Position numbers and translations under genes: made by a program
In this document: positions 1,895 to 2,893 of the stretch, one piece after another
Layout: each line of letters begins with the position of its first letter
Numbering within the stretch: the stretch's first letter is position 1
Assembly: GCA_030684835.1 (NCBI GenBank)
Contig: JAUXWZ010000075.1
Span: forward strand, 1 to 32,746
Direction of reading: 5' to 3'
From: Beijerinckiaceae bacterium
GTDB taxonomy: Bacteria; Pseudomonadota; Alphaproteobacteria; Rhizobiales; Beijerinckiaceae
DNA: 32,746 nt
The notes under the pieces: generated by a model
Seen by the model: only the letters and a program-made list of their open reading frames with translations
Told to the model about the DNA's origin: nothing
The model's database searches: none

Positions 1895-2893
1895 ATGGCC
1901 GTCGTCATCGACACGCTGAACAACGATCCCCGCAAGGCGCACGAAGGCGCAGCGGCGAAGGCCGCTGTCCGGCACCCCGAAAAGGCGCACCGGCCCGATC
2001 AGGCGATTGCCCGCAAGCCCGACTGGATTCGCGTGAAGGCGCCAGGCTCGCCGCGATACGCCGCCACGCGCGCCATCGTGAAAGAGCACAAGCTCGTCAC
2101 CGTGTGCGAGGAGGCTGGCTGCCCCAATATCGGCGAGTGCTGGGAGAAGAAGCACGCGACCTTTATGATCATGGGCGACACCTGCACCCGCGCCGGCGCC
2201 TTCTGCAATGTGAAGTCCGGCATGCCTTACGCGCTCGACGCGAGCGAACCGGACTATGTGGCGGATTCAGTGGCCAAGCTGGGCTTGTCCCATGTCGTCA
2301 TCACCTCGGTGGATCGCGACGATCTGGCTGACGGCGGCGCCGAGCATTTCGCCCGCACGATCCGCGCCCTTCGCTCGCGCGCGCCGCAGACGACTGTCGA
2401 AATCCTTACGCCAGATTTTCTGCGCAAACCCGGCGCTTTGGAAGTCGTGGTCGCCGCGCGTCCTGATGTGTTCAACCACAATCTTGAAACCGTGCCCTCG
2501 AAATATCTTAAAGTCCGGCCCGGTGCGCGTTACTTCCATTCCATCCGCCTGTTGCAGCGCGTGAAGGAGCTTGATCCGACTATCTTCACCAAGTCCGGAA
2601 TCATGGTTGGGCTGGGCGAGGAGCGTAATGAAGTGCTTCAACTCATGGACGATCTGCGCTCGGCGGACGTCGATTTCCTCACCATCGGCCAATATCTGCA
2701 GCCGACGCGTAAACATCATCCCGTGATGGGCTTTGTGACGCCGGATGAGTTCAAGGCCTACGAGGCGGTGGCGATGGCGAAGGGCTTCCTGCTTGTTTCA
2801 GCGACGCCGCTGACGCGTTCCTCCCATCACGCAGGCGAGGACTTCGCGCGTCTCAAAGCCGCCCGCCTGGCGCGGCTCGACACGAGCGCCTGA
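1895..2893 (+). CDS. lipA: Lipoyl synthase LipA (radical SAM), with an altered cluster motif
   Basis: Inserts two sulfurs into protein-bound octanoyl groups to make lipoate for pyruvate and 2-oxoglutarate dehydrogenases and the glycine cleavage system. The 332 residues match the family from end to end. The auxiliary-cluster cysteines C71, C76 and C82 are intact in [12 protein letters not shown], and the C-terminal [10 protein letters not shown] supplies the conserved serine region. The radical-SAM cluster motif, normally CTRACxFC, here reads CTRAGAFC: C97 and C104 are present but position 101 is Gly (codon GGC at 2195-2197, one base from TGC). In known LipA proteins all three cysteines hold the SAM-binding [4Fe-4S] cluster, so this copy may be impaired unless the base is an error. 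The VOC gene follows 17 nt downstream. Confidence 0.95.

Follow-up and report, generated by a model that had tools for sequence, protein, structure and literature searches.

The lipA gene of a Beijerinckiaceae bacterium (assembly GCA_030684835.1, contig JAUXWZ010000075.1) encodes a lipoyl synthase in which glycine occupies the place of the middle cysteine of the radical-SAM motif, and it raises the question of whether this glycine belongs to the living organism or to its draft assembly. The stretch of DNA analysed here, termed the window, comprises positions 1–32,746 of the contig (32,746 nucleotides, forward strand). An initial annotation made from the sequence alone had described the arrangement C97-TRA-G101-AF-C104 with GGC at positions 2195–2197 and intact auxiliary cysteines. 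Both descriptions were confirmed on the open reading frame at 1895–2893 (+), which retains Cys71, Cys76 and Cys82 and also the serine of the RSS motif. As deposited, LipA residues 97–104 read CTRAGAFC, that is, CX3GX2C, and the protein lacks the CX3CX2C that defines the radical-SAM site of LipA. Gly101 is neither a frame artefact nor a translation artefact. The features of the gene are collected in Table 1.

Table 1. Position of lipA and of its cluster-binding motifs and private codons in the window
Feature	Position	Strand	Basis or remark
lipA, lipoyl synthase, 332 aa	1895..2893	+	Only LipA found in the assembly; solved relatives 8ugo, 8tsk, 8trw, 5exi and 4u0o
Auxiliary-cluster motif CX4CX5C, Cys71/Cys76/Cys82, intact	2105..2140	+	Sequence; role of the motif from the available part of PMC13232139
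Cys97, first radical-SAM cysteine, codon TGC, present	2183..2185	+	Sequence
Codon 101, GGC (Gly); Cys in 57/57 relative rows	2195..2197	+	Sequence and relatives
Cys104, third radical-SAM cysteine, codon TGC, present	2204..2206	+	Sequence
Codon 108, TCC (Ser), a conservative change; every other row of the 58-row alignment has Thr	2216..2218	+	Alignment
RSSH motif, residues 308–311; the second of its serines is an auxiliary-cluster ligand in known LipA	2816..2827	+	Sequence; role of the serine from the available part of PMC13232139

Judged by its sequence, the window gene is a lipA by descent. The protein scores 362.9 bits with the NCBIfam LipA model TIGR00510, above the model's cut-off of 310.25, and five distinct solved sequences match the protein, every one of them named lipoyl synthase. 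The classical LipA/LIAS proteins (TIGR00510 and the solved relatives in Table 1) belong to the same family and have the same length as the window LipA, and they have in common with it the auxiliary CX4CX5C motif, the RSS serine motif and the first and third radical-SAM cysteines. The two differ at the middle cysteine (Cys141 of human LIAS), which is Gly101 in the window LipA, and in two alignments to mitochondrial lipoyl synthase a cysteine stands opposite this glycine. Cys137, Cys141 and Cys144 bind the radical-SAM cluster in human lipoyl synthase, according to the excerpt available of PMC12246082, and CX3CX2C is given as canonical for 481 aligned LipA proteins in the accessible portion of a preprint (PMC13232139). 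The window LipA contains cysteines at residues 71, 76, 82, 97 and 104 only, with none to spare. As written, it would be an incompetent enzyme by the known rules. No LipA relative was found in a search of viral_contigs. An ordinary chromosomal lipA is the best explanation of the gene.

The conservation of position 101 was examined in a protein search for LipA across 61 genomes, which comprise the own genome, 36 of the same genus and 24 of the same order. The search returned 58 matches in 57 genomes and left four genomes without a match; one of the 56 relatives with a match (G059) carries two lipA genes. All 57 matches outside the own genome, including two fragments (L076 and L080), were read at position 101, and each of these rows from the 56 relatives has a cysteine there. 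The C-terminal serine motif, of the RSS(Y/F/H) type, reads RSSH, as in the window LipA, in 47 of the 57 relative rows and RSSY in eight; two rows gave no match to the motif. The closest LipA is that of G001 of the same genus (91%), and the window gene differs from its nearest relative at 179 nucleotides, 131 of them at third codon positions. In the 58-row alignment, with the count limited to columns occupied in at least 90% of rows, the window LipA departs from the other 57 rows at two columns on which these all agree, through Gly101 and Ser108. Relaxed constraint across the whole gene was rejected as an explanation, given that the differences lie mostly at third positions and that only these two private changes fall at invariant columns.

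The change from Thr108 to Ser (codon at 2216) is a second private and conservative change, located 21 bases downstream of the Gly codon, and it is one of three further private first-position changes (codons 108, 112 and 121) near that codon at window positions 2216–2257. Set against 32 genus rows, six codons of the window gene (101, 108, 112, 121, 161 and 291) have a private base at their first or second position. The changes at codons 101, 108, 112 and 121 are all nonsynonymous and all at the first position; natural variation is seen at alignment columns 112 and 121. Four of the six private codons fall within a 21-codon span, as in about 1% of random placements. This clustering was given little weight because the same count is reached by two of the seven relatives compared, all seven having at least five such codons.

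Outside lipA, the window contig shows no sign of general assembly noise, which was checked through MetG and an NtrC-like protein and which counts against an error. For each of the two, 30 loci were used of 38 genomes searched, and where these 30 rows all agree, neither protein has a change of its own. With the sets restricted to the genus (18 rows), one conservative private change appears in MetG and two in the NtrC-like protein. Among further proteins from a subset of the window frames, 18 of 20 have a Pfam match over the cut-off and two have none. A general error rate for the contig is thus unsupported, since the remainder of the contig looks clean.

The assembly as a whole consists of 208 contigs and is 96.05% complete and 3.89% contaminated. 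A 16S match was not found in it, and the same search also failed in five of 14 control genomes. The assembly contains two full LipB genes, on contigs C198 and C208, whose proteins are 73% identical. Both lipB genes adjoin a tRNA-Leu(GAG) gene, as in three relatives checked, and among the other 60 genomes two separate lipB genes occur only in G015, the two in G052 being pieces of one gene. The two loci are most likely equivalent, each from a different organism, with duplication within one genome as the alternative. The bin is probably mixed because one assembly holds two lipB/tRNA-Leu(GAG) loci whose LipB proteins are only 73% identical. The window contig is probably part of the main genome, since its LipA is closest to that of G001 of the genus. 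On C208, the second lipB lies beside tRNA-Leu(GAG) and precedes genes for a phage-type integrase and for DUF3631/Toprim proteins (L082, G000:C208, 691–7500), forming an apparent island at the tRNA. This contig has a G+C content of 58.6%, compared with 61.6% for the window, and it probably derives from another organism in the bin. Near lipB in the relative G030, ARAGORN called a tRNA-Pyl (cta) (L100, 1499–1584), which is probably a false call.

The need for lipoate is evident from the gene content. The genome encodes SucB, PDH E2 and a lipoyl-domain-containing PDH E1-beta, and PDH and 2-oxoglutarate dehydrogenase (OGDH) need lipoate. The initial annotation had reasoned that a strain with a real loss would need another lipoyl synthase or lipoate scavenging, and neither a second lipA nor an lplA was found in what is assembled. 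The weak second match to LipA is BioB, the two PF21948 proteins of the genome are both LipB, the single PF03099 protein is BirA, and an LplA-type ligase was not found in the assembly. Radical_SAM matches number 15; LipA accounts for one and a single RlmN frame for two, which leaves 13 frames besides LipA. Twelve of these have an NCBIfam match. The motif CX3CX2C is kept in all 12 of the other radical-SAM frames that reach it; the thirteenth frame encodes the C-terminal portion of RimO and lies at the end of a contig. The frame without an NCBIfam match at the threshold used (L116, 475–2331) encodes a 619-aa radical-SAM protein with the motif CNLSCANC. RimO is found in two pieces, L114 and L118, at the starts of G000:C162 and C118; their profile ranges, 1–291 and 241–432, overlap, and they may represent one broken gene or two copies.

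LipS1 and LipS2 of Thermococcus kodakarensis (PMC9585515) catalyse the same overall reaction and could in principle replace LipA, but they are a separate pair of biotin-synthase-like proteins, and the window genome has one BioB only. This BioB (L110) passes its family's own cut-off and is the only BioB-like radical-SAM frame, and an evident LipS1/LipS2 pair was not found among the Radical_SAM matches as named by general family models. A truly dead LipA should be very costly and hard to survive, because the lipoate-needing PDH and OGDH are present and neither a second LipA, an LplA nor an evident LipS pair was found.

Replacement of the middle cysteine in other species was surveyed by a pattern scan across the 84,980 species in genome_contigs for a LipA-like motif whose middle Cys codon begins with A, C or G, that is, with Ser, Arg or Gly at the middle position; own-genome records were possibly excluded. 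With a Cys codon, the same pattern matches 55 of 57 relative genes, a sensitivity gauged in the window's order alone. The scan yielded eight loci in the 84,980, which are species genomes and not lipA genes. Five of them are LipA, with Ser (L034, read up to the end of the locus only), Gly (L035 and L039) or Arg (L037 and L038), and the other three (L033, L036 and L040) gave no LipA match by tblastn. By raw count, all five variants occur in MAG-titled records, from Chloracidobacterium, Microcoleus, Rubrobacter, Burkholderiaceae and Halomicronema. The Rubrobacter gene (L037, 4123–4982, Arg) also contains a frameshift and an internal stop. Microcoleus and Halomicronema, which are cyanobacteria, both have Gly in their variant LipA. 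The Gly-containing motifs of these cyanobacterial MAG proteins lie at 107–146 of L035 and 2081–2120 of L039. Isolated variants from five different groups, all in MAG records, form the scatter that would be expected of errors. A literature search by title did not find a natural lipoyl synthase without a radical-SAM cysteine.

Together, these observations suggest that GGC at 2195–2197 is probably a base-level assembly or sequencing error in the draft. An error is favoured because Cys101 is conserved in every relative read and the gene has no visible backup, and because the assembly is a fragmented, probably mixed draft and the codon variants elsewhere are isolated and all from MAGs. Several observations stand against it. 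The contig otherwise looks clean, the motif is kept in all 12 other radical-SAM frames that reach it, the clustered, nonsynonymous first-position changes are an atypical error signature, and the same Gly occurs in two cyanobacterial genes among the five of the scan. A quasi-palindrome correction was considered as a source of the change, in that GGC makes the local GCGCCGGCGC self-complementary; the changed base is central, where a hairpin cannot form, and the idea was dropped. If GGC is an error of the draft, probably mixed, metagenome-derived assembly, the living organism would have a cysteine at position 101. In its true enzyme, the SAM-cleaving [4Fe-4S] cluster would be bound by Cys97, Cys101 and Cys104, and the sacrificial cluster by Cys71, Cys76 and Cys82 together with Ser310. 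Between them, the two clusters would add two sulfur atoms to the octanoyl chains that LipB puts in place.

The main rival, although unlikely, is that the sampled strain really carries a recent, private allele that inactivates LipA and leaves it unable to hold the SAM-cleaving cluster. Lipoate or lipoyl groups would then come from neighbours via unassembled genes, or a second lipA would reside in the unassembled or unbinned part of the genome. The clean remainder of the contig is in line with such an allele, the conserved remainder of LipA would make any loss recent, and a missed gene is possible in an assembly about 96% complete, two lipA genes being present in G059. Against it, the rescue genes sought (an LplA-type ligase, a second LipA or an evident LipS1/S2 pair) were not found, yet the E2 components of PDH and OGDH are present.

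A chimeric consensus, with GGC arising where reads of related organisms were mixed within a single bin and not through a simple miscall, is distinctly improbable. The two lipB/tRNA-Leu loci, probably from two organisms, speak for such mixing, and the private changes clustered at codons 101–121 would fit a short mixed stretch, but Gly101 and Ser108 are absent from every relative aligned in the 58 rows, and no donor is visible.

It is very doubtful that the window protein is a working LipA with its radical-SAM cluster on two cysteines and another ligand, or that it has taken another role. Apart from the glycine, the gene is intact and conserved, with the Thr108-to-Ser change nearby, and the Gly at the same place in the two cyanobacterial MAG genes is the best lead for such an enzyme. 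The change is nevertheless found in none of the 57 relative rows, the protein has no spare cysteine, and the human enzyme uses all three cysteines for its cluster (PMC12246082, in the part available). Alanine in place of the three motif cysteines abolished the activity of LipS1 and LipS2 completely, according to the available part of PMC9585515, which concerns the triple replacement and not Gly at the middle position alone. The weakest reading, a natural CxxxGxxC LipA, active or in another role and perhaps with a non-Cys ligand, for which the cyanobacterial Gly genes would be independent cases, has the slimmest chance of all.

The initial annotation had offered an error, an inactivating change or an unusual LipA. 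The first two remain, with the error favoured, and the third is without support from the relatives, none of whose rows shares the Gly. An error or a private dead allele is what is left because an unusual LipA is unsupported and rescue genes were not found. When a draft assembly lacks one catalytic residue of an enzyme, caution is in order, with the reads first and interpretation after. If the glycine were real and the enzyme active, the window LipA would break the three-cysteine rule for the SAM-cleaving cluster in LipA.
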